This document shows, piece by piece, positions 7,747-44,691 of a stretch of 44,691 nt of DNA. This stretch comes from a virus: IMG/VR virus record IMGVR_UViG_3300032562_000056, positions 1 to 44,691 of that record; one strand, given 5' to 3'. The translations under genes were made by a program, and so were the position numbers. The stretch's first letter is position 1, and the number at the start of each line of letters is the position of its first letter. Below the pieces are notes generated by a model. It ran no database searches, was not told where the DNA came from, and worked only from the letters and a program-made list of their open reading frames with translations.

Positions 7747-8519
7747 ACGAAGAAGCCCTGCGGGTCAGAGTGAACAAGGTTAAGTGGTACCACACCATGG
7801 AAGTGCCGGGCACCAGCATCGTCACCCACGGCCACAGTCTCGGACTGGAGAAATCCTGGAACTGGATCAAGGAGCAGCTGAACGATTTGCACGCGCGCAA
7901 GCTGCTTAAAGGTCCGGCCCTCGACATAGGCTGTCGCGACGGCATGTTCAGTTTTTGGCTGGAGGACAACGGCATCGAGCCAGTCACCGGCATTGATAAC
8001 AACATCAGCGAAGGCATTGGCCTGATGCGCGAACTACGCGGGTCCAAGCTGACGATCCGGGAAAAGTCCGTGTATAGCTTGGATCGGGACAACCAGTTCC
8101 GCACCGTGCTGTTCATGGGCGTCCTGTACCACCTGCGGTATCCAATCAATGGCATATCTGCCGTCGTGGGCGCGACCCAGACCGGCGGCATCATTGTCGT
8201 GGAATCTGGATTCTACGGGCCAAATGACGAGCCGCTGATCCACTGCCCGGTCACGACGTCGCCGTGGGACGCGACCAGTTGCACTTTCTTTAATCTGAGG
8301 GGGCTGGACGAAACTTTCGCGTCCTTTGGCTGTAAACGGGTTGGTGAAGCTGTTTTCATGGACCACGGCAAGGATGACCATACCCTGCGCGGCATGGCGG
8401 TCTACACCAAGTGCCGGGAGATGCGCTTTGATTACTGGGAAGGCATTCACCGCGACTACACCAACCTGGACGAAAGCGCCAGCAGCCGACTTATTCGGTC
8501 GGAAGTTGCCGAGCTATGA
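7734..8519 (+). CDS. SAM-dependent methyltransferase, CmoB-like (DUF1698 type)
   Basis: A 261-aa class I methyltransferase. The opening KVKWYHTMEVPG matches the WYH region of CmoB-type enzymes, the SAM-binding loop is LDIGCRDGMFSFWLE (about residues 63-77), and VLFMGVLYHLRYP around 125-137 matches the GxLYHxxxP motif of that family. True CmoB modifies tRNA wobble uridine using carboxy-SAM. Here the gene is embedded between glycosyltransferases with overlaps on both sides (13 bp with the previous gene, ATGA with the next), so methylation of a sugar (capping or tailoring of a glycan) is more likely. In host polysaccharide loci, CmoB-like methyltransferases of this type often sit among glycosyltransferases. 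The enzyme class is well supported; the substrate is inferred. Confidence 0.82.
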   Translation: MDTLNEEALRVRVNKVKWYHTMEVPGTSIVTHGHSLGLEKSWNWIKEQLNDLHARKLLKGPALDIGCRDGMFSFWLEDNGIEPVTGIDNNISEGIGLMRELRGSKLTIREKSVYSLDRDNQFRTVLFMGVLYHLRYPINGISAVVGATQTGGIIVVESGFYGPNDEPLIHCPVTTSPWDATSCTFFNLRGLDETFASFGCKRVGEAVFMDHGKDDHTLRGMAVYTKCREMRFDYWEGIHRDYTNLDESASSRLIRSEVAEL

Positions 8520-9145
8520 ACGTGAAGCTGCTTACGCTATACGACGCGGGCTACGCTCAGGTGGGCGATCAGTGTGCCAAGTCGCTGCGGACGCACGCGG
8601 CGGCCATGGGTGTTGGCTTGGACGTATACACGGAGTTATTGGACCCAGGGGTGCATCCGTCCTGGAACAAAATAGCCGCCCTCCAAACGACGCTGTCGGA
8701 TTTACAGGATGGGGACTGGGCGGTGTGGATTGACGCCGACTGCCTGCTGCTTCGTCCGTTTGCGCTGGTGGACGACTTGGGCGACAAACTTCAGTTTGAC
8801 CTGCTGGGAGCCTCCGACTGGAACGGCCTGTGCGCCTGCGTGCTGGCGGTTAAGAAGTGTGCCTGGACCGACTGGTTTTTACCTACGCTTAGCCGGTGCG
8901 GAGACGTCAAGGACGACGACCGCTACGGGGCGGCTTTAGGGCCTAAGTGGGAGCAGAACACCATTAAGGGGCTGCTCAACGAGTTTCCTGCGGTGGCCCG
9001 CCGGATTTCCTTTTTGGACTCGAACTGGATAGCAGACATGCCGTGGTACGATCCAGAGCGGCTAAAGCCGCTGCACCACTTCGGAGCCTTAACCCAGAAT
9101 CAGCGTTTAAGCATGATGCGAGAATACCCTTATGGCGTGGCCTGA
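8516..9145 (+). CDS. Glycosyltransferase, GT34/GT-A-like (galactosyltransferase type)
   Basis: A 209-aa GT-A enzyme. WAVWIDADCLLLRPF (about residues 68-82) gives a DxD motif at D73/D75 for Mn-nucleotide-sugar binding, and the preceding SWNKIAALQTTL helix matches the GT34 (GMA12/MNN10-like) layout where a lysine and conserved helix precede the WxDxD strand. The C-terminus has WYDPERLKPLHHFG, resembling the His-containing end of such enzymes. It is short for the family but internally complete. It overlaps the methyltransferase stop by 4 bp and runs 14 bp into the next gene, so it is translated in one operon. It keeps the metal site that the neighbouring giant proteins lack. Sugar specificity cannot be read from sequence. 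Confidence 0.72.
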   Translation: MNVKLLTLYDAGYAQVGDQCAKSLRTHAAAMGVGLDVYTELLDPGVHPSWNKIAALQTTLSDLQDGDWAVWIDADCLLLRPFALVDDLGDKLQFDLLGASDWNGLCACVLAVKKCAWTDWFLPTLSRCGDVKDDDRYGAALGPKWEQNTIKGLLNEFPAVARRISFLDSNWIADMPWYDPERLKPLHHFGALTQNQRLSMMREYPYGVA

Positions 9146-11858: not shown

Positions 11859-12682
11859 TCAACGCATCCATCCTGCTTAATGAGCTGGAGCTGCTCAAGC
11901 TGCGGCTGCACGAGATGTACCGCGTGGTTGACCGCTTCTACGTGCTGGAGAGCCGGGTCACCTTCGCGGGCAGGCCCAAGCGGCTCAGCTACCAGGAGCA
12001 CGCCGACGAGTTCGAGCAGTGGCGCGATAAAATTGTATACATAGAGGTGCCGCCCTGCCCCAACCTGCCGGAAGATGCCCAGGCCGCCTCCTGGGCGCGC
12101 CAAAACTACCAGCGCGATTACTTGAAGGAAGTGCTGCCAAGGCTAAAGGAATTCGACGTGTTTAGCATCTGTGACGCTGACGAAATCATCAGCGCGCAGA
12201 CGATTCTAAACTACCGGCCTCGGGACGGCGCAGTCGGCCTGGAGCTGGCGTTCTTTCACTTCTACCTGAATTACGGGTGCGTCAACAAAGTCTGGAAGGC
12301 TCCTTATCTAGTACCCGGGTCGCTGTACAACCAGTATCCGGTGCATCGGCTGCGTCCGTTTGAACACTTCAGCTACAAGAGCGACCCCTATCCGCTGGCC
12401 AAGCGTTTGGAGCGCGCGGGCTGGCACTTTTCCTACTTGTTGGGTCCGGAAGGTCCTGGCCGGGTTCAGTACAAACTCAAAAATTACTCGCACTGCTTCG
12501 GGCGGCACACGCTGCCGATCCTGTACGCCCTCCAAGGCGACGTGCCGGTGGACATGCGGCGGCTGGGCAGGCAGGTGGACCCTAAAGGTGGCTTCATCTT
12601 CGACCGGATGCCGGACGCGCCGCTGCCGCGCTGGGTGACGGATAACCGGGCCGTGTACGAAAGCAAGGGGTACCTGCTGTGA
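11852..12682 (+). CDS. GT17-like glycosyltransferase (N-acetylglucosaminyltransferase family)
   Basis: A 276-aa protein; start ATG 11852 overlaps the preceding stop, and earlier in-frame codons lie inside the upstream gene. The front reads NELELLKLRLHEMYRVVDRFYVLESRVTFAGRPKRL in family order (residues 10-44, given here only as the signature start and end NELELL and GRPKRL), which is the diagnostic block of GT17 (beta-1,4-mannosyl-glycoprotein GlcNAc transferase family, widespread in bacteria and giant viruses). FDVFSICDADEI at 101-112 supplies the DxD (D108/D110). The C-terminal half has Trp/His-rich blocks (GWHFSYL, NYSHCFG) typical of the family. Bacterial GT17 members often act on surface glycans or glycoproteins. 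The family call is firm; the acceptor is unknown. Confidence 0.85.
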   Translation: MVINASILLNELELLKLRLHEMYRVVDRFYVLESRVTFAGRPKRLSYQEHADEFEQWRDKIVYIEVPPCPNLPEDAQAASWARQNYQRDYLKEVLPRLKEFDVFSICDADEIISAQTILNYRPRDGAVGLELAFFHFYLNYGCVNKVWKAPYLVPGSLYNQYPVHRLRPFEHFSYKSDPYPLAKRLERAGWHFSYLLGPEGPGRVQYKLKNYSHCFGRHTLPILYALQGDVPVDMRRLGRQVDPKGGFIFDRMPDAPLPRWVTDNRAVYESKGYLL

Positions 12683-13428
12683 CCTTGATCCTGACATTGC
12701 ACGACCGGGTTGAGCTGGTGCCGTACGTGCTGCGGTACTACACGCGGATGGGCGTAACGCGAATTGTCTACGCGCTGTGCAACGGCATCCGTCATCCGGT
12801 GTACGCTCAGGTTGCCGCCCTCAGCGGCGCGCTGGACTGGCACGTGCGACCGACCGTGCTGTGCTCCGAGTCAGACTACGCTTACAGCGAAACGGATGGC
12901 CTCAACGAAATCAGGCGCGAATTTGTCGAGCCGGAAGAATGGTACGTGCTGGCGGATGCGGATGAATTTCATTATTACGACGGGAAAAGCCTGGCGGAGG
13001 CTGCGGCCATGGCGGAGAGGGCGGGCTTTCGCTGCGTTCAAGGCGAGTTTAGGGACCGGTTTGCCGCTGACGGCGCGCTGCCGGTCATCCAGCCGGAGCG
13101 GACGTTAGACGAGCAGTTTCCGACCATGACCCAGTTTACCCGCTGGATGGGAGCCTGCTACCTTAAGGTTAGTCTATGCCAGGGCGGCCTGCCCATCCGC
13201 AGCGGTCACCATGAGTGCGACGAGGTGAGCTTTCCGTTTGGGTATACCCATCATTTTAAGTGGGTCAGCGGCATAAAGGAAATCTTGAAGAGCAGGCACG
13301 AGCGCCAGCTGGCCGCGCACATCAACTGGGCCTGGGAGCAGGCTAAAGCCTTGAGCCTGCTGGAAACACCGGATTACCTGAGCGACCCAAAGTGCAAAAG
13401 TGAACCGGCAAGTCAAATAGGAGTATGA
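12679..13428 (+). CDS. GT-A glycosyltransferase (GT2/GT92-like), first of a tandem pair
   Basis: A 249-aa protein starting at GTG 12679, which overlaps the previous TGA by 4 bp. LADADEFHYYDG (D93/D95) is the metal-binding DxD, in the style of the Glyco_tranf_2_4 / GT92 families, where a short LTLHDRVELVPYVLRYYTRMGV front replaces the usual GT2 beginning. Later conserved blocks shared with its neighbour are DWHVRP (53-58), IRSGHH and THHFKW. The shared blocks show that this gene and the next arose by tandem duplication. It is probably a cytoplasmic enzyme adding one sugar to the island's glycan. Confidence 0.75.
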   Translation: MTLILTLHDRVELVPYVLRYYTRMGVTRIVYALCNGIRHPVYAQVAALSGALDWHVRPTVLCSESDYAYSETDGLNEIRREFVEPEEWYVLADADEFHYYDGKSLAEAAAMAERAGFRCVQGEFRDRFAADGALPVIQPERTLDEQFPTMTQFTRWMGACYLKVSLCQGGLPIRSGHHECDEVSFPFGYTHHFKWVSGIKEILKSRHERQLAAHINWAWEQAKALSLLETPDYLSDPKCKSEPASQIGV

Positions 13429-14165
13429 CGCTGATAATACCCGTATACGACCGCACCTACCTGCTCCCGTTCCTGCTGAAGTACTACCAGCAGCGCGGAG
13501 TGACGCGGTTCGTGTACGCCGCGTGGCGAGGGATTAAGTGCCCCGTCTACGCTGAGCTGGCGAAACACAGCCAGGGACTCGACTGGCACGTGCGGCCAAA
13601 CCAGTTTTGCGCGTACAACCTGTACAACTCAACCGACGAAACAGTGGCGCTCAACCGGGCGCGCCGGGAGTTCGTGGCGGCTGACGTATGGTTTCTGGTG
13701 GCCGACCTGGACGAACTGCACGACTACGGCGGCAAATCCTTTCCGGACATGGCCGCCCAGGCCCAGCAGGAAGGCTATAAGGTCGTGCGCAGCCGGTTTG
13801 TGGACCGGTTTGCGCCGGAAGGGGCGCTGCCGCCGGTGAAGCTGGACGTCAGTCTGGATGCGCAATTCCCGTGGGCGACTTCCATGACCAAATGGTCCGG
13901 CGCAAATGTCCACAAGATTGGACTGCACCGAGGGGACGTGACGATCCGGTCGGGACACCACAACAGCATGGAAATACCGCTTAATTTTGGAGATACGCAC
14001 CATTTCAAGTGGTACGACGGAGTTCGGCCTTCGCTGCTGGCCCGGGTTCGGTCCAACATCTACTGCGCCTGGGAGCGCGAACGGTCGCTGGCCATACTCG
14101 ACAGCCCAAACTTTTTTCAGAATCCGAAGCTGGAAGTCAGACCAGCTGCCGTTCTTGGGGTTTAA
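13425..14165 (+). CDS. GT-A glycosyltransferase (GT2/GT92-like), second of a tandem pair
   Basis: A 246-aa paralogue of the preceding gene, co-linear over its whole length (MTLII/MTLIL starts, DWHVRP, DRFAxxGALP, IRSGHH, THHFKW, and ends VLGV/QIGV). The metal motif is VADLDELHDYGG (D94/D96). It overlaps the previous stop by 4 bp and has GGAG just before ATG 13425, one of few Shine-Dalgarno-like sequences here, though too close to the start to be ideal. Divergence of the residues around the DxD (FHYYDG versus LHDYGG) and of the region 60-80 suggests different sugar or acceptor choice. It closes the island: its stop overlaps the stop of a convergent small gene. Confidence 0.75.
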   Translation: MTLIIPVYDRTYLLPFLLKYYQQRGVTRFVYAAWRGIKCPVYAELAKHSQGLDWHVRPNQFCAYNLYNSTDETVALNRARREFVAADVWFLVADLDELHDYGGKSFPDMAAQAQQEGYKVVRSRFVDRFAPEGALPPVKLDVSLDAQFPWATSMTKWSGANVHKIGLHRGDVTIRSGHHNSMEIPLNFGDTHHFKWYDGVRPSLLARVRSNIYCAWERERSLAILDSPNFFQNPKLEVRPAAVLGV

Positions 14166-14380: not shown

Positions 14381-15460
14381 ATGATCGGACCATTGTTAAA
14401 ACGAGAGATCGAAAGCATGTTTACGGTGGTGGCGGACAAGTCCTCCGCCGAGGAACTGGTGTTCCTTTGTCCGGAATGCGGCGACCATTCCGGCCACCGG
14501 TCGGTGAACCTGCGCACCGGCTTCACCTTTTGCTTCCGGTGCAACAAGGGCGCGCACAACAAGGGCAATTTCATGGCCTGGTCCAAGGCCCTGGGCTACC
14601 AGTTCCTGAACTCCGACAACGGCTACAGCAACGTGCCGCTGGAGGAGCTGCTGAACAATCCGCCAGCGGTCAGGACCAAGATGCCGGTGCTCAAGCCGGT
14701 GGACCTGCCGGTGGGCTTCACCCGGCTGGAGGATGACCCCGACAGCGCCTACACGGAGCTGATCCGCCGCATGGCCAAGCGAAAAAATCTGGACCTGAAA
14801 GCGTTCATCGAGGCGGGCGCGGGCTTCACGGAGCAGGGCCTGTGGGAGCCGTACTGCATTTTTCCCGTCTACGATTCCAAGATGCCCGTCTACTATCAGG
14901 GCCGCACGTACGTGGACGTGCCGGGCGAGCCGACCAAGCGTTTCCCCAACCGCAAGGACGTGACCTACGGTGCGTCCTACTGGGTGTACAACATCGACGA
15001 GGTGCGGACGGTCAAGCCCAATGTCATCATCATGGTGGAATCCATCCTGAACGTCCTGTCGCTGAAGCGCAAGCTGCGCGCGCTCCACCTGGAGCACAAG
15101 TACGTGCCGGTGTGCGTGTTCAAGCACTTTGTCAGCCAGGTGCAAGTGCAGAAGCTGCTGCTCTGCGGCGCGGAGGAGTTCTGCCTGCTGTTCGACCACG
15201 ACGCCATCGCCCTGACCTGGAAGTCGGTGGCCGCGTTTAGCAACCTGACCCGGGTGACGATTGCGGAAATGCCGCAGCTGGAGGGCAACAAGAAGGCCGA
15301 TGCCAACGATGATGTAGACGCCGCCTGGGACGCCATCCGCAACCGCAAGCGCTACAGCGCGGCGGCGGTGACGGGCAATCTGGTCACCGTGGACCCGCTC
15401 CGGGCCATGAAGCAAGCCTGTGACATAACCAAGCTCCGAATCGGTTCTATACCGGTATGA
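14381..15460 (+). CDS. DNA primase (zinc ribbon + TOPRIM, no helicase domain)
   Basis: A 359-aa primase that lays RNA primers for lagging-strand synthesis. The zinc ribbon is C30-PE-C33 with H36/H39 nearby and C51-FR-C54. The TOPRIM core shows VIIMVESILNVLSL (catalytic E220) and LLFDHDAIAL (D272/D274), followed by the NDDVDAAWDAI region. The chain ends without a RecA-type helicase domain, unlike T7 gp4, so the replicative helicase must be encoded elsewhere. It overlaps the GroES-like gene by 4 bp. The gap before it contains no Shine-Dalgarno core closer than AGGA at about 12 nt from the start. Assignment to the DnaG/T7-type primase family is firm. Confidence 0.9.
   Translation: MIGPLLKREIESMFTVVADKSSAEELVFLCPECGDHSGHRSVNLRTGFTFCFRCNKGAHNKGNFMAWSKALGYQFLNSDNGYSNVPLEELLNNPPAVRTKMPVLKPVDLPVGFTRLEDDPDSAYTELIRRMAKRKNLDLKAFIEAGAGFTEQGLWEPYCIFPVYDSKMPVYYQGRTYVDVPGEPTKRFPNRKDVTYGASYWVYNIDEVRTVKPNVIIMVESILNVLSLKRKLRALHLEHKYVPVCVFKHFVSQVQVQKLLLCGAEEFCLLFDHDAIALTWKSVAAFSNLTRVTIAEMPQLEGNKKADANDDVDAAWDAIRNRKRYSAAAVTGNLVTVDPLRAMKQACDITKLRIGSIPV
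15443..15458 (+). promoter_or_regulatory. GGTTCTA element merged with palindrome ATACCGGTAT over a start codon
   Basis: GGTTCTA (15443-15449) is directly followed by the perfect 10-bp palindrome ATACCGGTAT (15449-15458), whose last bases are part of the ATG at 15457 of the GroES-like gene. It could be an operator or part of a start signal lying inside the primase 3' end. Seen in sequence; function is a guess. Confidence 0.3.
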
Positions 15461-16071
15461 ATGTAAAAATGTTTGGTTTTCGCTGCCTGGTGGAACACTA
15501 CCGGCCCAAGTCCTCCTCGTCGCAGATCATCCTGCCTGACGCCGCCCAGCAGGCGGATACGCACCGGATGGGCAAAGTGGTCTCCGTGGGCACCGATCCC
15601 AAAAAGACGTCGGTCGTCAAGCCCGGCGACATCGTGATGTTCCAGATCAACTCGGTCATGGAGAACACGCAGAAGTACGTGCTGGACGGCAGGCACTACA
15701 TGAATCTGCACCAGGGCGACATCATCGGTCGGCTGACCGGCGACGAGGTCACGCTGCCAAATTTCGAGATGGTGGGCGACTACGTCCTGCTCAAGCACTT
15801 TTTCCGCGAGTCCGGCTCACCAATCATCCTGCCGGAACATGTCATGCGCCAGTCCACGCCGGAGTTCATCTACTTCAAGGTGCTCAAGAAAGGGTCGACC
15901 GTGACCAAGCCGGTGGAGGAGGGCGACGAAGTGGTGGCCAACCTCGGCAAGCTGACTCCGATTTTCTTCGTGGAGCGGCTGAAGGACGGCACTTCCAACA
16001 ATCAGGAGTTCTGCTACACGCACCAGGACTGGCTGGACGGCAAGGTCATAAAAGACAGCGCCGAACCGTAG
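15457..16071 (+). CDS. Co-chaperonin-like protein with two GroES-type domains
   Basis: A 204-aa protein. Residues about 5-95 follow GroES: RCLVEHYRP, SSQIILPDAAQ (mobile-loop position), GKVVSVGTD, VKPGDIVMFQI, then YMNLHQGDIIGRL. A second, more divergent copy covers about 105-190: VGDYVLLKHFF, SPIILPEHV, FKVLKKGS, VEEGDEVVANLG. GroES is about 95 aa, so this is a tandem fusion. Phage GroES analogues (T4 gp31, RB49 CocO) replace host GroES to fold the major capsid protein; a two-domain form like plant Cpn20 would make an unusual ring. It is coupled to primase by a 4-bp overlap. The alternative is a beta-barrel virion or regulatory protein sharing the fold. Confidence 0.68.
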   Translation: MNVKMFGFRCLVEHYRPKSSSSQIILPDAAQQADTHRMGKVVSVGTDPKKTSVVKPGDIVMFQINSVMENTQKYVLDGRHYMNLHQGDIIGRLTGDEVTLPNFEMVGDYVLLKHFFRESGSPIILPEHVMRQSTPEFIYFKVLKKGSTVTKPVEEGDEVVANLGKLTPIFFVERLKDGTSNNQEFCYTHQDWLDGKVIKDSAEP

Positions 16072-30132: not shown

Positions 30133-31266
30133 ATGATGCAGCTTGTCACGTTTAACGAACCCTTGACCCTGGGCTTCAAAAAGAGCGCCGGTGGGGTGAC
30201 GCTCACCTTCGAGGCCAACCGGCCCTACGTGTTCACCCATTCGCAGATGATGAACATCATGAAGGACCCCAAGGTCCAGCAACGGACCCAGCGGGTGTCG
30301 CTGCTCAACCCGCGCATCCCAAACTTTCACATCGCCGCCCTCAAGAAGAACCAAAGGGTGCTCGTCTACAACGGTTCGGGCGGCTACGGCGACCAGATCA
30401 TGACCTGGCCCCTGGCCCAGTACCTGCATGAGCACGGGGCGCAGGTGCATGTGGCCACCGATCCGGGCAACAATCTGTGCTGGTGGAACCTGCCGTTTGT
30501 GGCGTCGGTGAACATGTTCCCGCTGGCGCTGGCCACCGTCAAGATGTTCGATCACTTTGTGGCCTTTGAGGCGGTGGTCAACATGGACGAGCATCAGGAC
30601 CAGGAGCACCCGCTGGACGCCCTGTTTCGCCGGATCGGCGTCGACCCCGACAGCGTGCCTGCGGCCAAAAAATGCGTCCGCCCGGCTTTCACTCCCAGCG
30701 AACTGGGCACCCTGGTCAAGTACCGCGACCGCCGGATCGGCCTGTACCAGCTCACCAGCGCCAACCCGGTGCGGGGACTGCCGGTCAACGACAGCGTGTT
30801 CATGGCCGTCAAGCTGGCGGAGGCGTGCCCGGAGCAGCACTGGCTGTGCCTCTACGACGAATTTGTTCCGGAGGCGTATACCCGGGCGCTGTTGGAAGAA
30901 GTCAACCGGCGCAAGCTGACCAACATCGAAGCCTTCACGGCCCTGAATCTGCGCGAGCTGTGGGCGCTGACGGAGCACGTGAGCGTCGTGGTCTCGCCCG
31001 ACTCCATGATGGCGCACGTGGCCGGTATGTTCGGGACACCCTGCGTCGGCCTGTGGGGTCCGATGTCCCCGGACCGGCGGGTGACGTACTACAAAAACCA
31101 TTACCCGGTGCATCACACCGAGTGCTGCCCGCAGTCGCCTTGCTTCACCTACGGCGGCACCTTCCCCCGCTACTGCCCGCCGCGCCCGGGGCGCACGGTA
31201 TGCGACGTACTGGCGGCGGCCAGCCACGCTGAGGTCATCGAGTTGGTCAAAAAGGTGGCTAGATAA
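30133..31266 (+). CDS. GT9-like glycosyltransferase (heptosyltransferase fold), outside the island
   Basis: A 377-aa protein. After a 70-aa N-terminal addition (TLGFKKSAGGVTLTFEANRPYVFTHSQ), the GT9 fold begins with RVLVYNGSGGYGDQIMTWPLAQYL, where the glycine-rich GSGGYGD turn is the usual acceptor-side loop, and continues to VVVSPDSMMAHVAGMFGTPCVGLWGP (about 285-315), the nucleotide-sugar site. The end is cysteine rich (TECCPQSPC, RYCPPRP, VCDV). No DxD, as expected for GT-B enzymes. It is 16 kb from the glycan island and more standard in length than the fused island proteins. It could supply a sugar to the same glycan. Stop is followed by an intergenic promoter-like sequence. Confidence 0.8.
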   Translation: MMQLVTFNEPLTLGFKKSAGGVTLTFEANRPYVFTHSQMMNIMKDPKVQQRTQRVSLLNPRIPNFHIAALKKNQRVLVYNGSGGYGDQIMTWPLAQYLHEHGAQVHVATDPGNNLCWWNLPFVASVNMFPLALATVKMFDHFVAFEAVVNMDEHQDQEHPLDALFRRIGVDPDSVPAAKKCVRPAFTPSELGTLVKYRDRRIGLYQLTSANPVRGLPVNDSVFMAVKLAEACPEQHWLCLYDEFVPEAYTRALLEEVNRRKLTNIEAFTALNLRELWALTEHVSVVVSPDSMMAHVAGMFGTPCVGLWGPMSPDRRVTYYKNHYPVHHTECCPQSPCFTYGGTFPRYCPPRPGRTVCDVLAAASHAEVIELVKKVAR

Positions 31267-34641: not shown

Positions 34642-34773
34642 ACAAATCAAAATACCAATTCGTTTCTACCTGGTTATGAACACTTTATGCTATAACGTAT
34701 ACGCTGAAGGCAATCTGTTTTCCTGGTCTTTGGCGTCTGTTTGCGCGTTTTTTTCTGTAAACAGGCTAGTTTC

Positions 34774-34871
34774 GGAGAAAATTGCAGGTCTGGTGGAGAA
34801 AGTTGCCGATCACTGGAGAAAATTGCCGAACATACCGGAGAAAATTGCCGGGATAACGGAGGAAATTGCCG
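34774..34871 (+). repeat. Five iteron-like direct repeats, consensus GGAGAAAATTGCCG
   Basis: Copies begin at 34774, 34795, 34815, 34837 and 34858, with spacing 21, 20, 22 and 21 bp, about two helical turns, so all would face the same side of the DNA. Copies 3 and 4 match the 14-mer exactly; copy 1 ends GCAG, copy 2 has one change (AAAGTTG), copy 5 has GGAGGAAATTGCCG. Linkers between copies are unrelated in sequence, which separates true binding repeats from simple duplication. Confidence 0.85.
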
Positions 34872-35061: not shown

Positions 35062-35418
35062 ATGAAATTGACCGTCCAACAGCAGCAGTACCTGGCCGCC
35101 AAAGCGTGCTGGTACTTTGACGTGTACATCGGCGAGGTTCAGACGGACAACTCAGACTCGACGGTGTTCACCGGGGAAGGGGTGGCTGACCTGGACGACC
35201 TGATCGAACGGATGCAGTGGGCGTACAGTGTTCCTGGCTACGTCAACAGCAAGTCCAGGTTTCTGTGCGACGTGGGCAGCCAGTACTCCGACTGGAGACC
35301 GTTCGACGTGGATGACTTGCAGGCAATCAAGACGTACTACATCCAGAAGTGGGGCAACGTGAACAAGCCTGACGTCTACGGACCCGGGGAAACCATCGGC
35401 TTTGAGCCAGCATCATGA
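35062..35418 (+). CDS. Protein of unknown function (118 aa)
   Basis: A 118-aa acidic protein; ATG 35062 chosen because upstream frame codes through the hairpins. MKLTVQQQQYLAAKACWYFDVYIGEVQ then a DDLIERMQWAYSVPGYVN block, and a C-terminal WRPFDVDDLQAIKTYYIQKW. The frequent tryptophans and acidic patches resemble small phage host-takeover proteins, but no family is recognised. Its stop overlaps the next start (ATGA), so it forms an operon with the 978-aa and 2H/HExxH genes. Confidence 0.65.
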   Translation: MKLTVQQQQYLAAKACWYFDVYIGEVQTDNSDSTVFTGEGVADLDDLIERMQWAYSVPGYVNSKSRFLCDVGSQYSDWRPFDVDDLQAIKTYYIQKWGNVNKPDVYGPGETIGFEPAS

Positions 35419-38351
35419 GCGCTCAACTGCTGCCACACTACCTGCTGGAAGCTGACCTGGAAGGCTACACCGCCTGGGCGGATGACGAGGACTTCAACCT
35501 GGATAAGGCGGAGGAGTTCATCAAGCAGATTTTCGGCATCGGCTACGAACGCGCCAAGCAGCTGGAAGAGCTGGTCAAACCCAACCGGGACGGCAACTAC
35601 TGGATTCCCAACGCCAGTAACGGCCAGTATGCCAGCTTCGATGATCAGGCTAATCTCAAGCACATGGTGAAGAGCTACCCATGGTTGCATCAGCAGGACA
35701 GCGGTCTGGCGATTGATCCGGACAAGGCCAAGGAATCCAACGGCGATCTGGAGCGGTATCTGGCGGCAGTTGACCCGGACGACTGGGATCAGTTCATTGA
35801 AGACCTGAAGGTGCTCTGCGGCGACTACCCGGTCCTGGACGAAGACGAGGCGCAGGAGCTGGAAATGAAGGAGCAGCAGCGCTGGGCGGAAAGCGACGGC
35901 ATGCCCGAGCTGAAGAAAACGCTGATGGCGCTGGCGGCGGATTCGTTCACGGCCTTCGTGATCAGCCAGGTGCGCAGCACCAAGATTTTCTGGGAGTGGT
36001 GTCAGGAGGTGCAAACCTGGCCGGAGCGGGACGGTGAATCCAGCGTGTACATGGACGTGGAAAAACACGTGGAACCGGAGCACGTGGAATGGTTCCTGGA
36101 GCAGCTGCCCAACCTGGCTGGCTTCCAGCGCCGGTGGCAGCAGATCAAGCGGGAGTTCTGGGAGTCGCCGTCCACGGAGGATACTCCGACAGGTGCGCGC
36201 ACCCAGGGAGACGTTTTCGACGAACTGGTGCGGTCAGTGTTAGTGCCCCAGGACCCGGAGTGTCAGCGAGCGTACGCCAAGATGGACAACGAGGACCTGT
36301 ACCGCTTCTTTCTCCGGCTGACGCCGGACGGCGTATATCACGACACCACCCGTCCGCGCTGGATTCCCGTCAAGGACGATTACGGTGAGGACCCGTACTG
36401 GGTGTGCTCCATGGCGGACCCCATGGGTTTCGACAAGCTGGGCCGCAGCTGGCGGAATTACTTCAAGGACGGCATGAAGGTCCTGCTCAACCGGCCCGAA
36501 GCCGCTCAGGTGCTGCGCCAGGCGGACCGCCACGAGCCGCTGGAGCACCCTCAGCTGCCTCTGGGGGAGGCCCGCAGGCTGTTTGAGGGTAATTCCATGC
36601 CCGGCGCGCCCGCGCGCTTGGCCACGGGCAGCCAGCGCGCGGCGCTGAGCCTTAATGAAGCGGACCATGACCTGCCGCCGGACGACAATTTTGACCCGGA
36701 AGCCTGGTTGCGTCGCGGTGGTGACATGCGCATTCAGGAGCTATGGAGGGACAACTCGGTCCGAATTGTCCGGCCCTTGGACATGCCAGCTCTGAATGCG
36801 CTGCAACTAGGCAGGCCGCAAAACGGATTTGAGCGGAATCCAGGGAACCTGTACTACGGCTTTCCCGTGGTCGTGCTGACCGCTGACACCAACCGGTGCC
36901 TGGGGGCCTTCAACATCGAGGACGGCCAGATCGAACCTATCGGCATGAGCCGGACAAAGGTCTGGGAGGTGTGCGCGGATAAAGCGTACGGCAGGTCCGC
37001 GCGCCGTGGGTTGATCGCCCTCGTGCGCGGCAAGTGGCGGGCGACCGTGCGGTCCACCGACGACTATCAGAACGACAAAGTCATCCGGGAATTCGGCAAC
37101 ACCCTGGCCTGTCTCAATATCCTGGGAGGCAACGGGGAAGTCCAGCGGTTTATCAAGTCGTACGCCCGGCATCCGATAGCGCGGGAGTTGAAACGGTTTG
37201 GGCTATTCCTGGGGCTGCGGGCGGCGGTGAGCGGCGACCTGAAATCGGCGGCTGACTACCTCAAGCCGGACACAGCCAAGCTGGAGGCGCGCGGAGCCTG
37301 GCTGGGCTATTACGGCTACGAGGCTTTGGCGGTGTTGTTCGACAACGAAAACTGGGCGTCGGACGTGTTCCAGGGCGAGACGTACGACTGGTTTGATTAT
37401 CATTACGACAAACATAGTCGGCCCGACCTGGGCGACGCCCTGGACTGGCTTACGCCCAAGGCGTACGCGTATATCCGTGATTTGCTGATCAACCGGGAGG
37501 TGTTTTTCCCGGAGGGCGGTCCCACCGGCGAAGGCGCGTGGGTCGTGGTCACCCGGGACATGCTCAATGAGTACACTGATTCGGACCTGTGGGAGTGGGT
37601 CAAAGACCCCAACCCCGAGGAGGAGTCCCAAGGCACCTACGATGACATCATCGAAGCCGTGCAAAACGGCGCGGCCAACATGCTTTCCATGGTTTCCCGG
37701 GATCAGCTGGAATCCAAGGTCACGAAGCTCGCCCTCAGTGAATTGGATGCGATCAAGAGTGAGTGGGGCACGACCAGCACCGGCAAAGACGTGTTTCTGG
37801 TTCTGGTCCCCTGGAAGAGCCTGACGGAGGCGTTCGAGAAAGCCTCCGAGGATAACGGCAACGGCTTGGAATACGACAACGACCTGGCCAGCATGATGCT
37901 GGAGGCGCACAAGGGGGCGATCAGCACCGAGAGAATTGAAGCTGACGGCGGGTGGCCGGACGAGAAGGACTCGTCGGCGGACTATTATCGCGAAGAGTGT
38001 AGCACGCCGCTGCTGGAGCTGGAAATGACCCGGTTCCCGGAGGACCGCAACCAGTTGCAGCTCAAGCTGGGCGACAGCCTGCTGCGCGAGCTTCAGCCGG
38101 TGCTCGAAGCGGCGGCGGAGCGCGTGGGCGCGGAACTGTACAGCGTCCACCTGGCGGACCTGGGCGACCGGATCACCCTGGAGTGCGACGCCGAACCGGC
38201 GCTGACGGTGCCGGGCCAGGCGGCGCTTAAGGAGGCGGTGGGCCGCGAGGTCTTCAACCTGCTGGCGCAGCAGGGCGTCTACACGTCACCGGCGATCCTG
38301 GACGAAACCTCAACCGGCGCGCATCCCCGGTTCTTTTGGAGCCTGGAATGA
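35415..38351 (+). CDS. Large acidic protein of unknown function (978 aa)
   Basis: A 978-aa protein, strongly acidic and rich in Trp/Asp/Glu, without recognisable catalytic motifs. Visible features: a helical N-terminus (DLEGYTAWADDEDFNLDKAEEF, KQIFGIGYERAKQLEELV), a tryptophan-rich charged region at 185-260 (IFWEWCQEVQTW, EFWESP), a low-complexity linker near 375-440, a possible compact domain at 455-600 (GFPVVVLTADTNRCLGAFNIED, KVWEVCADKAYG, RGLIALVRGKW), and a C-terminal part (GELYSVHLADLGDRITLECD, positions about 905-935). It overlaps both neighbours by 4 bp. It could be an internal virion protein injected with DNA, or a multi-domain inhibitor; sequence alone does not decide. Confidence 0.6.
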   Translation: MSAQLLPHYLLEADLEGYTAWADDEDFNLDKAEEFIKQIFGIGYERAKQLEELVKPNRDGNYWIPNASNGQYASFDDQANLKHMVKSYPWLHQQDSGLAIDPDKAKESNGDLERYLAAVDPDDWDQFIEDLKVLCGDYPVLDEDEAQELEMKEQQRWAESDGMPELKKTLMALAADSFTAFVISQVRSTKIFWEWCQEVQTWPERDGESSVYMDVEKHVEPEHVEWFLEQLPNLAGFQRRWQQIKREFWESPSTEDTPTGARTQGDVFDELVRSVLVPQDPECQRAYAKMDNEDLYRFFLRLTPDGVYHDTTRPRWIPVKDDYGEDPYWVCSMADPMGFDKLGRSWRNYFKDGMKVLLNRPEAAQVLRQADRHEPLEHPQLPLGEARRLFEGNSMPGAPARLATGSQRAALSLNEADHDLPPDDNFDPEAWLRRGGDMRIQELWRDNSVRIVRPLDMPALNALQLGRPQNGFERNPGNLYYGFPVVVLTADTNRCLGAFNIEDGQIEPIGMSRTKVWEVCADKAYGRSARRGLIALVRGKWRATVRSTDDYQNDKVIREFGNTLACLNILGGNGEVQRFIKSYARHPIARELKRFGLFLGLRAAVSGDLKSAADYLKPDTAKLEARGAWLGYYGYEALAVLFDNENWASDVFQGETYDWFDYHYDKHSRPDLGDALDWLTPKAYAYIRDLLINREVFFPEGGPTGEGAWVVVTRDMLNEYTDSDLWEWVKDPNPEEESQGTYDDIIEAVQNGAANMLSMVSRDQLESKVTKLALSELDAIKSEWGTTSTGKDVFLVLVPWKSLTEAFEKASEDNGNGLEYDNDLASMMLEAHKGAISTERIEADGGWPDEKDSSADYYREECSTPLLELEMTRFPEDRNQLQLKLGDSLLRELQPVLEAAAERVGAELYSVHLADLGDRITLECDAEPALTVPGQAALKEAVGREVFNLLAQQGVYTSPAILDETSTGAHPRFFWSLE
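38329..38335 (+). promoter_or_regulatory. GGTTCTT element before 2H/HExxH gene
   Basis: GGTTCTTTTGGAG lies 19 nt before ATG 38348, inside the end of the 978-aa gene. The trailing TGGAG could also act as ribosome binding site. Confidence 0.35.
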
Positions 38352-39967
38352 ACGCAACGAGACTGACTGATTTGCTGCTGGAGAAGGCGTACAGCTACTC
38401 CTGCCTGATGATCGACGCGCCCACGGAGATCGGCGACCGGGTGGTGGAGTGGGGCGAGTTGAACATCCCCGACGACGTCCTGTTCGTCGGCGACAACGGC
38501 GACATGGGGCGCGAGCTGGAGGCCCACGTCACCGTGAAGTTCGGCATGACCGAGCCGATTCCCACGGCCAGCGTCTACAATATCGCGCACACGACCCAGC
38601 CCTTCCCCATCACGGTGGGCAAGGTCAGCCTCTTCCGGAACGAGAAGTTTGACGTGGTCAAGTGCGACGTGGAGTCGGACTGGCTGCGCCACCTCAACAG
38701 CCAGATCAGCCGCGAGGTGCCCAACGAGGACCGGCATCCGGAATACCACCCGCACCTGACCGTCGCCTACGTGAAAAAAGGCACCTGCGACCAGCTGGAG
38801 GGCATGGACATCTTTGAGGACGGCGCGGAGTGGATGGCTTACGGCATGGTCTGGAAGGGCGCGGGCGACGATGACCAGGCACCCCGGCACCAGGAGGTCC
38901 TGCTTTTTTCCAAGGTCAAGCAGCACGGGCTGATGCACGAGGCGGCGGTGGGACCGAGCCAGGCGGACATGGAGGAGATCAACCAGATCATCCAGCAGGC
39001 GCAGGACAGCTGCAACGACGACCCCCGGGTGTTTGTCACGCTGGCCAACGACGAGCTGTCCAAGTTTGGCGTTAAGTTCGAGCAGCATCCGGACATGGCC
39101 CTGTGTCCGGGCACGCCCGGCATGGCGACCGACACCGGCGTCTACCTGCGGGTGCCGGACCGGTACATGCTGCGCCAGCAGAAGCTGACGCGCGTATACG
39201 CGCCGGTGATCTATCACGAACTGGTCCACGGGCATCAGCTCACCAACATGTCCGATCCGGCTAAAGTCACAGCGGATGCCACCGCCTGGGTGACGCCCAG
39301 GGGACACCTGGACCAGGACCGGTATCTTCAGCAGAAGCAAGAGGTCATGGCCTGGGCGGCCAGCATGGTGGACTCCTGGCGGCGGCAGGGCTTGAACTCG
39401 GAGCAGATGCTGGCCCGGCTGCGCAACGGCCACTGGGGCATGGCCGAGAAGTACTGGTACAACCGGCAGCGGTACCCCAAGACGTTTCAACGCTTTGTGC
39501 GGGACGCCACGGACTACATCCAGCAGCACGGTCGCGCGGCGGCGCAGGAGAGCGCGGACAGCGTTGATCCACAGCGCTACGTGAACGAGCTGCCCGCCAG
39601 CGCCTGGACCTACAAGGAGGTGCCGGGAACGACCGGCAGGAACGCCTTGATCAAGTACTACGGCACGACAGTGACCCAGCTATCCGGTCCGGACAGCCGA
39701 AGCGCGGGAACTTGGGTTAACCTGTTCAACGCCTTGGAGCGCTATGCGCCCTACCACGCGCATCCGCAGCTGGGCGTGGGGACCTGGTATCAACGGTTCA
39801 GCCGCATGGCCGAAGCCCTGGCCGAAAACGGTCCCGAGAATGTGAAATTTGACCACGCGGCCAAATCCGATCCGTACGCCGATTTGCCCTTTCCCGCCAG
39901 CAGCGACGACCTGAGCCGGTTTATGCGGCACCGGAAGAAGAAACGGGCCAGCCGCCCGGTTCTTTGA
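38348..39967 (+). CDS. Fusion of 2H phosphoesterase-like and HExxH metalloprotease-like domains
   Basis: A 539-aa protein; ATG 38348 overlaps the previous stop by 4 bp. Residues about 20-190 have the 2H phosphoesterase signature, two HxTV motifs: H60 in EAHVTVKFG and H136 in PHLTVAYVK, about 75 residues apart. This superfamily includes LigT/CPDase enzymes and Acb1, the phage protein that degrades cyclic nucleotides of CBASS immunity. After a linker, residues about 200-400 hold VIYHELVHGHQ (H290, E291, H294), an HExxH zinc-peptidase motif with nearby acidic residues for a third ligand. The remainder is basic and ends KKKRASRP. A 2H-plus-protease fusion could counter host defence or process proteins, but neither activity is shown. 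Third zinc ligand not identified. Confidence 0.75.
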   Translation: MNATRLTDLLLEKAYSYSCLMIDAPTEIGDRVVEWGELNIPDDVLFVGDNGDMGRELEAHVTVKFGMTEPIPTASVYNIAHTTQPFPITVGKVSLFRNEKFDVVKCDVESDWLRHLNSQISREVPNEDRHPEYHPHLTVAYVKKGTCDQLEGMDIFEDGAEWMAYGMVWKGAGDDDQAPRHQEVLLFSKVKQHGLMHEAAVGPSQADMEEINQIIQQAQDSCNDDPRVFVTLANDELSKFGVKFEQHPDMALCPGTPGMATDTGVYLRVPDRYMLRQQKLTRVYAPVIYHELVHGHQLTNMSDPAKVTADATAWVTPRGHLDQDRYLQQKQEVMAWAASMVDSWRRQGLNSEQMLARLRNGHWGMAEKYWYNRQRYPKTFQRFVRDATDYIQQHGRAAAQESADSVDPQRYVNELPASAWTYKEVPGTTGRNALIKYYGTTVTQLSGPDSRSAGTWVNLFNALERYAPYHAHPQLGVGTWYQRFSRMAEALAENGPENVKFDHAAKSDPYADLPFPASSDDLSRFMRHRKKKRASRPVL

Positions 39968-39994: not shown

Positions 39995-42900
39995 GTGAGC
40001 ATTGGCAATTTAATCGAAGGTCTGCTTTACAACAAGCTGCCTAACGCCGTCGTCACCGGCGACGAGAATGGTCTCGTCAGCGCGGTGATTGGCGGGTTTC
40101 AGGACCGGTTGAGCGACCTGCGGTCGTATACCAAGAAGATGGGCGATTTCTGGACGCCCGGGACGTTGCCGGAAACAGGCAACAACGCCGTCCTGGTGGA
40201 CATCACCGGGCAATGGGGCACGGTCTACACCCGCAGCCTGGACATTGATCCATCCACCCCGCCGGACGGCAGCCCGTACCTCTCAACCTGGGCGGCGTCC
40301 CAGCTGGGCCTCACCCTGTCCAGCATTGCCAACGTGCGCTACGGCGTGGACCTGCTGCGCCAGGTGGACGCGAACATCCTGTCCTACCTGGCGGCCACGC
40401 TGGGCGCGGTGCTCCACCAGAGCCAGGCCCTGACCGCCGCCGGGCAGTCGCAGGCGCACATCCAGCTGGTCAACACCTGGTTTCCCCGGCTGAAGATCAA
40501 AGGCTCGGCACAGAGCTTCGAGGTGCTGGGCCGGATTCTGGGTTTTGACGACGTCCGGTACACGCCGCTTTGGACGCGCCTGTCGCCGCGCAATCCCAAC
40601 GACGTGGGTGATCCGGCCAACGACGCGGATTTTTCCGCGCAGACGGAGTACTTTCCGGCGCAGACGATCTCGGTGTTTTATGACCCGTTCGCCTACCGCG
40701 ACGGAGCCTTCTTCAGCTGGAGCGGCACGGCCAGCAACGGCACGAGCAGCACGGGCTTTTATCCGGAGAGCATCGACGGCATGAACCCATGGGTGCAGAC
40801 CAGCATCGTCGGGCCGGTGGCCAACGGCACCATCACGCACCCATTCGCAGGCACTGATCCGGCCACCACCTACAGCGGCAGCCTGGTCCTGGCGGGCGGC
40901 CTGCCGGAGCTGCGGGCGTCGGCGACCGATCCCAACAGCGGCGTGATCTTCCAGGCGATTGCCGAGGGGGACAGCTTCAACGGAGTGGTGCTGAACTTCG
41001 CCACGACCGGCAGCCTGTGCGTGGTCAGCATCGAGGACAATCTCTCGGCGATCAAGTACCGGTCCAGCTACTTCGACCTGGGCTTGACCATGGACATGGA
41101 CCACGCCGAGGAGCTATTCGGCAGCCGGGCGACGACGACCAACGCCAACCTGGCGGCCAACCCGGTGACTGTCTACGGAACGGCGGTGTCGCCGTACATG
41201 CCCTATACCGGCGGCACGTACGCCAACAGCCCGCTGTCGGTTGACTGGCTGAGCGTGGCCGACTACGGCACGTCCGTGACCCACCCCGCTGAAGCCAACC
41301 CGGCGCTGACGCGGCAGCTGAATACGAGCTACATGGTGGCGGCGGGCGTGCAAGTGGTGCAAGCCATGGAGGAGACCCGGGCGGCCACGCGGTCGCCCCG
41401 GCGCAGCCAGGTGGGCTTCCTCAACGACGACAAAGCGCCCTACGCGGCGTACGGGACAGAGAGCCTGCTGTTCACCGCCTCGGCGGGCACGACCGTCTAC
41501 GACGGCACCATCTCGGTGCTGCCGGACTGCGTGGCGCTGGCGTCCGTCTCGCCCATTCCGTACGTGTACATGACCTGGACCGGGGTGATCGGCGTCCGCT
41601 ATGATTTTTGGTGGCTGGGCACGCGGGCCACCAACTGGACGCAGATATATGCCGGTGGCCTGCTGGCCACGCAGACCAAGTGTTCGTTGACGTTCGCGGG
41701 CGACTGGATTAACTCGGGCGGCATCGAGGTGTTCACCTCGCCGTTCACCTGGATTCAAAACTGGGACATCGTGCCGATCAGCGGTCAGCTCAGTTTTACC
41801 GCTGAGTCGTCCCCGAACAACCCGCAGCTGGGCTATTACCAGGGCGCGGACAACATCAGCGCCGGTACCTTCAACGCCGCCACCGGCGTCTACCACTGGG
41901 TCAACTCCAGCGACTGGCCGGGTGCCCAGGTGGTGGTGTACTGGGTGCCGTTTAGCACGGAAGTCATCCGGAACGAGCCGTCCCTGGCCGACAAGGAGTC
42001 CGGTACAGTGGCCTATCAGCTGCGCGCGGAGGATGAAGAGGATGATCCGCTCAACGGCACGCTGGATGCGTTCAAGTATGCGGTCGACGATTTTGCCTGG
42101 CGGCGCTCCCTGGTGGTGGGCGGCGAACTGGCGGACCTGGACATCTATCTGGCGGGCACGGAGGTCGGCATCGACATACTCAGCACGGACACCGTGTTCC
42201 GGGATCAGAGCGGGGCGGAGCTTAATGTCTACGGCGTGACCAGCCAGGCGCTGCCCTTCCGATACACCTATGACACCCGGCCCATGGACTCGACCTATCA
42301 GCCGGGCCAGCTGGCCATCGGCTACCAGGGTGTGTTTCGGGACCTGTCCGCGTATACGGTTTACGATACCAGCGATCCCAAGCCGGTGGACCCCGGCCTG
42401 GGCAGCACGCCCGGCTGCACGCGCACGGTTTACGACACCATTTTCAACGGGACCTACAGCCTCTATCACGTCGGGCTTTGCCAGGGCGTGCTGGTGGCAG
42501 ACCTGCCCGCTTTCTACGGTTCCCACCACCGGGACGGGCTGGTGTGCTGGTTGCCCTTGGACGAGCATCCCGAGGACCAGCTGCTGATGGCGGACCACAG
42601 CTACAAGGCGGATGTCAGCACCTGGGTCGGGCTGACGGCCAGCGACCGCGTGTTCGATCCATATTTCGGCTGGGTGCTGACCCTCTCCAGCGCCTGGCTG
42701 CAACAGACCAAGTTCCGGGAGATTGCGGAGGAAGCCAGCGTTGCGTTCTGGGTTAACCTGACCGTGGCTCCGCTGACGGAGCAGGTTTTCGTGCGCTGCG
42801 GCCCGCTGAAGCTGACGCTTACGCCGGGTCGCGCGGTCATCGGCTACGTGCGCCGGTTTGACGGCACCTACGTCTCGGTCGGGTCCACCACGGCGTTTGC

Positions 42901-44691
42901 GTACGGAGACTGGTATTTTGTCTACCTGACCAAGGACGCCGAGACGGCGACCCTGGGCTACGGGACCGTCTCTGGCGGCTTGGTCTCGCCCACGGCGCTG
43001 ACCGGTTCCTTCCCTTTGACCAGTCCCGACGACACGGACCAATCCCTGCTGGTCTCCGCCTCCGGGGCGAGCCTGAAGCTGCATGACTTGCGCTTGTGGA
43101 ATCTCGAAAAGAGCGCGGCGGACCTGGCCATGGTGCTCAACTACCAGCCAACGCCCACCCTGTGCCCGTACCCGCTGGGCCGGGTGCTGACCTTGGACCG
43201 GCAGGACCGCTACGGGCTGCGCGTGCTTGGTTCCGGCTGGGTGGTGCTGGACAACCTGCCCGCGTCCTATCAATCGGAGAATCTCGGCCTGGTCCGGCGC
43301 TATGACAGCATGGGCGTCTACACCGGCGAGGACCGCTACCAGGAGACCGGCCTTGGCGGCGGCAGGCTGCCGCCCGCGCAGTACACGCTGGGCCAGCAGA
43401 CGCTGGAGATGACGGCCTACGGCACGCACGCGTACAGCAACCAGTACGGGTACCTGCCCGGCACCAACACCTTCTGGTCGGCAATCACCGGCTCGACCGC
43501 GCCGGAGCTGATGGCCCAGACCAACGTGTTTCGGGACAAGATTTGGTTTTGCGATCTCGACCAGGCGACCAAGCCGCTGTACGTGGGCTGGCTGGACGCG
43601 ACCCACGCCGCGTCCACACCCACGTTAAATTATGCGCCCACCGATGAACGTGCCGGGGCGTTCGTGCTGCCGCTGCGGCTGAGCGTTTTGACCGGTGCGC
43701 ACGCTTACGACGGCCATTCCGGCTTGACGCCGATCTACATGTACCTGGAGAGTCGCGCCATCGCCAGCGTCAACCCGGCGGCCACGGCCTGGACGGACCT
43801 GGACTCGCTGACGCCCGGGGACAACGGCGTGGACCCGACAGACATGCCCAGCATCGTCGGCCTCGACGGAAACCTAAAGCAGCCGGTCATCGGCGAGAAC
43901 GGCGTCCTGGAGTTCAGCAACAGCACCAGCCTCCCGGCAGGCCAGTACAAGCTGACCATCACGAGCGGCTGCGTCGGGCTGCTGGACCAGGACTTCGACG
44001 GCTTTGTCGTCAACCTGACGCTGGGTTCAAATGTCTACGCGTACAAGCTGCTGGAGGGGCGCAGCGGCTACAACATTCAAGGTACGGATGTGTTCACGAT
44101 CAACGTGCCTACCACCATCTCGGGCGCGTACCTGTTCAGCGTGGAGCTGACCAATGCGCTGAGCGACACCAGCCGGGGCACCTCGCGCCAGCTGATCATC
44201 TACAGCTACGCATTGCGGCGGATGCACACTGAGCCGTGGGAGGTGCAGTTCTGCGTCCCCAATCCCTGCACGCCGATCCTGCTCGCCCTGGACGCCACTA
44301 ACACCGGCACCACGCCGGGCGGCTGGCTGGCGGCGATGAACAGTTACGGCACGGTGGCCAGCTCGCAGCAGGAGTCCACGTACTATCCGGCTAACGACAC
44401 CGTGGCCAGCCCGTCACCGGTGTCCGCACTGCTCACGGGTTTGACCAACGACCGGATGGAGGACATTTTCAGCACCGGCACGATTCCGACACTGGTGGAC
44501 GGCACTGTCTGGACACTGCCCACCTATACCGGGCTGGTTCTCACGCCCGACTACGGCCTCGGTTTCCAGTACCAGACCGGCTACGAGGTGACGTTCACGG
44601 CGCAGACCACCGGCGACACCAGCGGAGTGGCTGCCTATGTTTGGAAGTGGTGGGACGGCACTGGCACCGCGACGCCCGGGCCGTCGGCTAC
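39995..44691 (+). CDS. Giant tail/fibre protein, gpI-like N-terminus and LamG-like domain (3' end missing)
   Basis: An open frame from GTG 39995 to the window end, more than 1565 codons with no stop found. Residues about 1-190 resemble P2 gpI-type tail proteins: AATLGAVLHQSQ and then HIQLVNTWFPRLKIKGSAQSFEVLGRILGFDDV (key: WF-RLKIKGSA, RILGFDDV), where the KG(S/T)xxS turn and following leucine helix match. Further on are many beta repeats. A LamG/concanavalin-like domain lies around 42520-43130, with VCWLPLDE, VAFWVNLTV and LKLHDLRLWNLEKSAADL. The C-terminal portion available is Thr/Gly rich. It is probably a tail fibre or baseplate-bound adhesin, linking baseplate (N-terminus) to receptor binding. 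Start is the first GTG after the preceding stop; a true fibre may exceed 2000 aa. Confidence 0.72.
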   Translation, partial: MSIGNLIEGLLYNKLPNAVVTGDENGLVSAVIGGFQDRLSDLRSYTKKMGDFWTPGTLPETGNNAVLVDITGQWGTVYTRSLDIDPSTPPDGSPYLSTWAASQLGLTLSSIANVRYGVDLLRQVDANILSYLAATLGAVLHQSQALTAAGQSQAHIQLVNTWFPRLKIKGSAQSFEVLGRILGFDDVRYTPLWTRLSPRNPNDVGDPANDADFSAQTEYFPAQTISVFYDPFAYRDGAFFSWSGTASNGTSSTGFYPESIDGMNPWVQTSIVGPVANGTITHPFAGTDPATTYSGSLVLAGGLPELRASATDPNSGVIFQAIAEGDSFNGVVLNFATTGSLCVVSIEDNLSAIKYRSSYFDLGLTMDMDHAEELFGSRATTTNANLAANPVTVYGTAVSPYMPYTGGTYANSPLSVDWLSVADYGTSVTHPAEANPALTRQLNTSYMVAAGVQVVQAMEETRAATRSPRRSQVGFLNDDKAPYAAYGTESLLFTASAGTTVYDGTISVLPDCVALASVSPIPYVYMTWTGVIGVRYDFWWLGTRATNWTQIYAGGLLATQTKCSLTFAGDWINSGGIEVFTSPFTWIQNWDIVPISGQLSFTAESSPNNPQLGYYQGADNISAGTFNAATGVYHWVNSSDWPGAQVVVYWVPFSTEVIRNEPSLADKESGTVAYQLRAEDEEDDPLNGTLDAFKYAVDDFAWRRSLVVGGELADLDIYLAGTEVGIDILSTDTVFRDQSGAELNVYGVTSQALPFRYTYDTRPMDSTYQPGQLAIGYQGVFRDLSAYTVYDTSDPKPVDPGLGSTPGCTRTVYDTIFNGTYSLYHVGLCQGVLVADLPAFYGSHHRDGLVCWLPLDEHPEDQLLMADHSYKADVSTWVGLTASDRVFDPYFGWVLTLSSAWLQQTKFREIAEEASVAFWVNLTVAPLTEQVFVRCGPLKLTLTPGRAVIGYVRRFDGTYVSVGSTTAFAYGDWYFVYLTKDAETATLGYGTVSGGLVSPTALTGSFPLTSPDDTDQSLLVSASGASLKLHDLRLWNLEKSAADLAMVLNYQPTPTLCPYPLGRVLTLDRQDRYGLRVLGSGWVVLDNLPASYQSENLGLVRRYDSMGVYTGEDRYQETGLGGGRLPPAQYTLGQQTLEMTAYGTHAYSNQYGYLPGTNTFWSAITGSTAPELMAQTNVFRDKIWFCDLDQATKPLYVGWLDATHAASTPTLNYAPTDERAGAFVLPLRLSVLTGAHAYDGHSGLTPIYMYLESRAIASVNPAATAWTDLDSLTPGDNGVDPTDMPSIVGLDGNLKQPVIGENGVLEFSNSTSLPAGQYKLTITSGCVGLLDQDFDGFVVNLTLGSNVYAYKLLEGRSGYNIQGTDVFTINVPTTISGAYLFSVELTNALSDTSRGTSRQLIIYSYALRRMHTEPWEVQFCVPNPCTPILLALDATNTGTTPGGWLAAMNSYGTVASSQQESTYYPANDTVASPSPVSALLTGLTNDRMEDIFSTGTIPTLVDGTVWTLPTYTGLVLTPDYGLGFQYQTGYEVTFTAQTTGDTSGVAAYVWKWWDGTGTATPGPSA

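Follow-up and report, generated by a model that had tools for sequence, protein, structure and literature searches.

Gene cluster at the locus

The window, i.e. the whole stretch of DNA that was analysed, is a 44.7-kb virus record. Its final gene runs past the end in the open reading frame list and, as this gene is open, the record is evidently a piece of a larger genome. The encoded proteins include a T4-like portal, a gp25-like baseplate wedge, tail proteins, a helicase, a primase and a co-chaperonin. The co-chaperonin gene (15457-16071) is of the GroES/Cpn10 type, and several glycosyltransferase-like genes, GT9-type included, are found at 5641-14165 and 30133-31266.

Three genes on the plus strand encode proteins of 118, 978 and 539 aa, each sharing 4 bp (ATGA) with the next (Table 1). 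This agrees with a preliminary description of this DNA, which had reported an operon of three overlapping genes. The gene for a giant, probably structural protein begins 27 bp downstream of the 539-aa gene. Syntenic homologues of the three proteins are present in contig L002 (identical in sequence to L003) with identities of 49%, 29% (over 910 aa) and 46%, and synteny is partly kept in the related giant-phage contigs L004 and L005. Therefore, the three are regarded as real genes. The order helicase, replication-type gene, 118-aa, 978-like, 2H and giant gene is common to the window and L002/L003; L004 and L005 keep the cluster order, but with gene fusions, and contain 118-aa homologues at the equivalent position (31% and 33% identity). 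Residues 77-232 of the 978-aa protein match weakly (E 7e-4) an L004 protein that is directly fused to a 2H domain. The structure prediction of the 978-aa protein had a mean pLDDT of 39 and was not usable.

Table 1. Features at the locus with their positions in the window. A slash marks the predicted cut.
Feature	Position	Strand	Remarks
Five 17-nt iteron-like repeats	34771..34871	+	just upstream of the cluster; spacing 20-22 nt
118-aa protein	35062..35418	+	conserved first gene of the cluster; no leader
978-aa multi-module protein	35415..38351	+	open reading frame and L002 homologue
Leader-like N terminus of 978-aa protein, MSAQLLPHYLLE/AD	35415..35450	+	followed by acidic ADDEDFNLD
Internal phi-x-E sites of 978-aa protein, LPLGE/A, RLFE/G, LSLNE/ADHDLPPDDNFDP	36555..36662	+	residues 381-416
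539-aa putative precursor	38348..39967	+	leader, 2H phosphoesterase, linker, zincin-like metallopeptidase, C-terminal extension
Leader of 539-aa protein, MNATRLTDLLLE	38348..38383	+	predicted prohead-protease site after E12
2H phosphoesterase domain	38387..38881	+	residues 14-178; H60xT62, H136xT138
Linker site LMHE/A	38930..38944	+	between 2H and metallopeptidase; L002 counterpart EVTE/A
Zincin-like metallopeptidase region	38945..39577	+	related regions in two G004 polyproteins
HELVH motif	39215..39229	+	residues 290-294, including E291
E332, candidate third zinc ligand	39341..39343	+	context QEVMAWA; 38 residues after H294
Giant probable structural protein, N-terminal part	39995..44689	+	conserved neighbour; open at window end

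The 2H phosphoesterase domain

The N-terminal domain of the 539-aa protein is predicted to be a 2H enzyme. Residues 56-146 match Pfam 2_5_RNA_ligase2 (PF13563) with 40.4 bits (cut-off 27, E 4e-10), and both HxT motifs (H60/T62 and H136/T138) are intact. The model of the domain, with pLDDT values mostly between 72 and 91, has the bilobed fold that together with two HxT/S motifs characterizes the 2H superfamily. A fold search with this model retrieved LigT, Usb1, CPDases and Acb1 alike, LigT and Usb1 ranking first. A profile of ten 2H sequences matched Acb1 of BCSR5, an RNA-ligase-like protein of P. furiosus and Acb1 of FBB1 at about equal E-values. Against Pfam Acb1 (PF23474) the domain scores 14.6 bits, below the curated cut-off of 27. 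An Acb1 identity, to which the comparison in the preliminary description points, is thus not supported, given this score and LigT/Usb1 fold matches that are equal or better. Since the domain lies under the Acb1 cut-off and equally near LigT and Usb1, specificity for CBASS signals is not readable from the sequence, nor is any other substrate.

Relatives join the 2H domain to various partners. Leader-bearing proteins of L047 (5980-8568) and L066 (5569-8529) fuse it to a nucleotidyltransferase of the CCA-adding/polyA-polymerase type and an HD domain, while proteins of L062 and L069 fuse it to ART-like regions (below cut-off) and one of L049 to a weak nucleoside-deoxyribosyltransferase-like region. 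With these partner domains both RNA repair and removal of nucleotide signals are possible. An RNA-end healing enzyme, which would open 2',3'-cyclic phosphates to repair RNAs cut by host nucleases, is nevertheless rather unlikely. The nucleotidyltransferase fusions point in this direction, as does a 136-aa leader-bearing protein of G001 (87142-87552, minus strand), which contains two HxT motifs, weakly matches the CPD domain of fungal tRNA ligase and is a candidate for a second tagged 2H-type enzyme. RNA_ligase-family genes are carried by the giant phages W01-W05, G005, G008 and G009. However, a search for the RNA_ligase family (PF09414) and RtcB found neither in the nearest relatives G001, G004 and G015, which are fragments, and Iyer et al. 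report no association of these 2H versions with RNA ligases. An Acb1-like anti-CBASS nuclease delivered with the DNA appears less probable still. The 2H profile does match the Acb1 structures 9q2g (E 4e-4) and 7t26 (E 6e-4), and the L049 relative passes the Pfam Acb1 cut-off (32.8 versus 27 bits), but the score of the window domain, the equally good P. furiosus match and the top-ranking LigT and Usb1 folds argue against it.

The search gave no cultured phage of this 2H branch whose virion proteome is known. In L033 (LR745206, 11956-13272) a leader-bearing 2H protein continues, by eye, into a DnaQ-type exonuclease-like part.

The zincin-like metallopeptidase region

In the C-terminal part of the 539-aa protein an HExxH motif is followed by a plausible third ligand, the combination expected of zincin-like proteins. 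H290, E291, H294 and E332 are invariant in four divergent sequences, namely those from the window, L002 and two G004 polyproteins, the latter being the most distant with 20-25% identity to the window region. The fusion of a 2H domain with an HExxH protein, as proposed in the preliminary description, is therefore borne out by H60/H136 in HxT motifs and by HELVH with E291 and E332. No match to the metallopeptidase region was obtained in Pfam or by PDB sequence search, and a scan of viral contigs gave no relatives besides G001 and its identical copy; the two copies in G004 were recognized solely by a direct search and by reading. As pLDDT is below 50 over much of the region, we infer the zincin fold from the motifs.

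The G004 polyproteins of 1145 aa (87573-91010, plus strand) and 1190 aa (112251-115823, minus strand) each contain a metallopeptidase-like region and several internal tag-like sites of the form LxE-acidic-KDL. An ART-like stretch was seen by eye in the 1190-aa polyprotein. HExxH strings in L082 and L066 were considered as independent fusions of 2H and protease and rejected, since by eye they belong to a ParB-like GHxxR context and an HD domain.

Leaders and phi-x-E sites

In T4, the internal proteins and Alt are directed into the prohead by a capsid-targeting sequence (CTS) of 10-20 residues, which gp21 removes by a cut after phi-x-E; in Alt the cuts are at ITE-6 and LTE-619 (PMC5694885). The 539-aa protein begins with MNATRLTDLLLE/KAYSYSC and its L002 homologue with MTPFGLARSLLE/AEYSYSS, so both have a T4-type leader of about 10-20 aa that ends in phi-x-E. 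A linker site of the form phi-x-E/A is present in both two-enzyme versions, those of the window and L002. In L004, L005 and L042 the 2H domain is fused behind a 978-like protein, and phi-x-E is kept just ahead of the 2H strand (PLGE/TEGVHDHSC, PLEE/AYQYSC and SLCE/GREYSC, respectively). Hence all five close homologues have phi-x-E at most 14 residues upstream of the first 2H strand, compared with a background rate of 17.8% per 14-aa stretch. In L005 and L042 an acidic tag takes the place of the leader at the N terminus of the precursor.

The leader-like start of the 978-aa protein is not conserved, its L002 homologue having no leader. The internal phi-x-E sites of the 978-aa protein mark a predicted module boundary at residues 381-416. 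Scored by the G001-derived leader profile (see below), LSLNE/AD of this protein ranks first in the entire window; the window's own two leaders fall below threshold.

Leader enrichment in related giant phages

In G001, LLE occurs within residues 5-22 of 14 proteins versus 1.9 +- 1.3 in interior stretches, and in G004 of 11 versus 2.0 +- 1.3. These patterns were partly chosen after inspection of the lists, and two cleaner tests were added. For the first, 15 leaders of G001, not including that of the 2H gene, served to train a profile. In G004 this profile recognized 10 of 296 Glu sites at N termini and 8 of 3326 in the interior, rates that differ about 13-fold, and several of the interior hits fall at internal sites of tagged polyproteins. 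Among genes around 2H relatives in later-fetched loci, from which most 2H genes had been removed, the motif was found in 69 of 563 versus 22.2 +- 4.5 expected (maximum 36 in 300 draws). A tighter leader pattern without acidic residues proved overly strict in G001 and G004, where it gave weaker lists. Phi-x-E precedes the domain in 24 of 35 distinct N-terminal 2H ORFs.

The leaders vary by phage group (LLE/DE.., MIKLKSLLxE/ and MKxLKKFNES). The MIKLKxLLxE leader is almost constant within one group, and one group has an acidic DEDDFDxKDL element after the leader. Over 7 kb of G008, six genes including the 2H gene share MIKLKxLLxE-type leaders, and the matching pattern has zero interior occurrences in 105,499 residues. 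Clustering of leaders near head genes reached p values of about 0.02-0.04 only. Many neighbour genes in L033 (LR745206) begin with MKxLKKFNES. A 450-aa leader-bearing protein of G001 (109515-110867, plus strand) has a phage lysozyme domain.

Proposed packaging and injection of the enzymes

The proteins of G001 and G004 include a Peptidase_S77 of the gp21 type, which scores over cut-off, and a capsid protein resembling gp23. Of the further contigs, the five large ones in which the 2H gene has a leader-like start contain S77, and four with a leaderless 2H do not. Exceptions are L101, a contig without S77 though its 2H gene has a leader, and L045, with S77 and a seemingly leaderless 2H; either these contigs are incomplete or the rule is loose. 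No S77 gene was identified within the window fragment. Mainly because S77 and gp23 co-occur with the leaders, we read the leader as a putative packaging and cleavage tag.

Consequently, we propose, with moderate confidence and from sequence features, that the 539-aa gene encodes the precursor of a head-packaged, injected cargo of a giant T4-headed phage, which is cut by the prohead protease. The 978-aa gene probably encodes head-packaged cargo as well. The CTS-like leader would carry the 539-aa precursor into the prohead, where it would be loaded with the core. The S77 protease, cutting after phi-x-E, would remove the leader at E12, and a cut after E198 in the linker would release the 2H phosphoesterase and the metallopeptidase as two enzymes, which would then exit the head together with the DNA. 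In the new host the 2H enzyme may hydrolyse a 2',5'- or cyclic phosphodiester, either in an immune nucleotide signal or in RNA, and the metallopeptidase may cut host proteins or cargo precursors. The preliminary description had regarded the cluster as a possible anti-defence or takeover locus, in a place where early-injected or early-expressed genes are common. The takeover idea is supported in part: delivery at the start of infection is likely, presumably by way of packaging and not early expression, as the locus abuts a structural gene. The further suggestion that one protein would hit two kinds of defence is not supported, because phi-x-E sites on either side of the 2H domain predict that the two enzymes are cut apart. 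In a wider sense it is conceivable, though here we are more tentative, that a genome-wide leader address marks tens of proteins for the head in giant T4-headed phages, that their polyproteins consist of tagged modules to be released by the prohead protease as individual enzymes for injection, and that the 2H/zincin precursor is an example of a cargo with two effectors.

The metallopeptidase might instead be a maturation protease for cargo precursors, its own included, and not a host-directed effector. This is possible but not favoured: a similar region is found inside the two G004 polyproteins with their tag-like internal sites, and such a role was proposed for the zincins of P1 DdrB and N4 vRNAP (PMC5512222). 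However, the S77 protease encoded in relatives is consistent with the phi-x-E sites, and a zincin site preference is not readable from the sequence. It is improbable that the leader is no packaging signal at all, so that the tagged proteins would be cytoplasmic early proteins with N termini shared by modular recombination or as another localization signal. The differences in leader sequence among phage groups and the lack of conservation of the 978-aa leader in L002 would fit this explanation, but phi-x-E is also conserved between domains inside the proteins, a place in which a signal for the start site or for N-terminal localization would make no sense, and leaders co-occur with S77.

Comparison with known systems

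Packaging of the 539-aa protein would be similar to that of T4 IPI-III and Alt in its short N-terminal leader ending in phi-x-E, in enzymes as the predicted cargo, and in the S77 protease and gp23-like capsid protein, here encoded in relatives. In contrast to IPI-III and Alt, the cargo consists of 2H and zincin-like enzymes unrelated to them in sequence, dozens of proteins are candidates for tagging, and tag-like sites are repeated inside polyproteins. With two unrelated enzymatic domains, 2H and zincin-like, in one polypeptide that is predicted to be packaged, the protein has the architecture of the polyvalent proteins (Iyer et al. 2017; e.g. P1 DdrB and N4 vRNAP zincins). It differs from them in phi-x-E sites between the domains, which predict separation by a prohead protease, and no ArdC, MuF or portal fusion was seen. 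Acb1 of T4, FBB1 and Burkholderia phage BCSR5 is likewise phage-encoded and has the 2H fold and two HxT motifs, but the 539-aa domain scores under the family cut-off, is fused to a metallopeptidase and carries a leader. LigT/ThpR, YjcG and Usb1, the best fold matches, are enzymes of cells that act on RNA ends and have neither a leader nor a protease domain.

The occurrence of 2H and zincin domains in packaged polyvalent proteins has been predicted before (PMC5512222), and the CTS is well known from T4. In the literature searched there was no report of separable enzymes with protease sites at their junctions and a tag common to many genes, nor, in the limited CTS literature (mainly T4, P1, P22 and SPN3US), of such leaders in these giant phages. 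If the proposal is correct, a simple sequence rule predicts which giant-phage genes are injected at infection, and many hypothetical proteins become candidate takeover or counter-defence effectors. The question at this locus would then shift from an early-expressed gene to virion cargo.

Repeat array upstream of the cluster

The origin candidate noted in the preliminary description is real as a feature. It consists of the five 17-nt repeats, and L004 (5108-5184) and L005 (4435-4539) have arrays with a period of 21 nt at the equivalent place, although their sequences are different. Iteron-like arrays near replication-type genes may represent a plasmid-like origin in giant phages.
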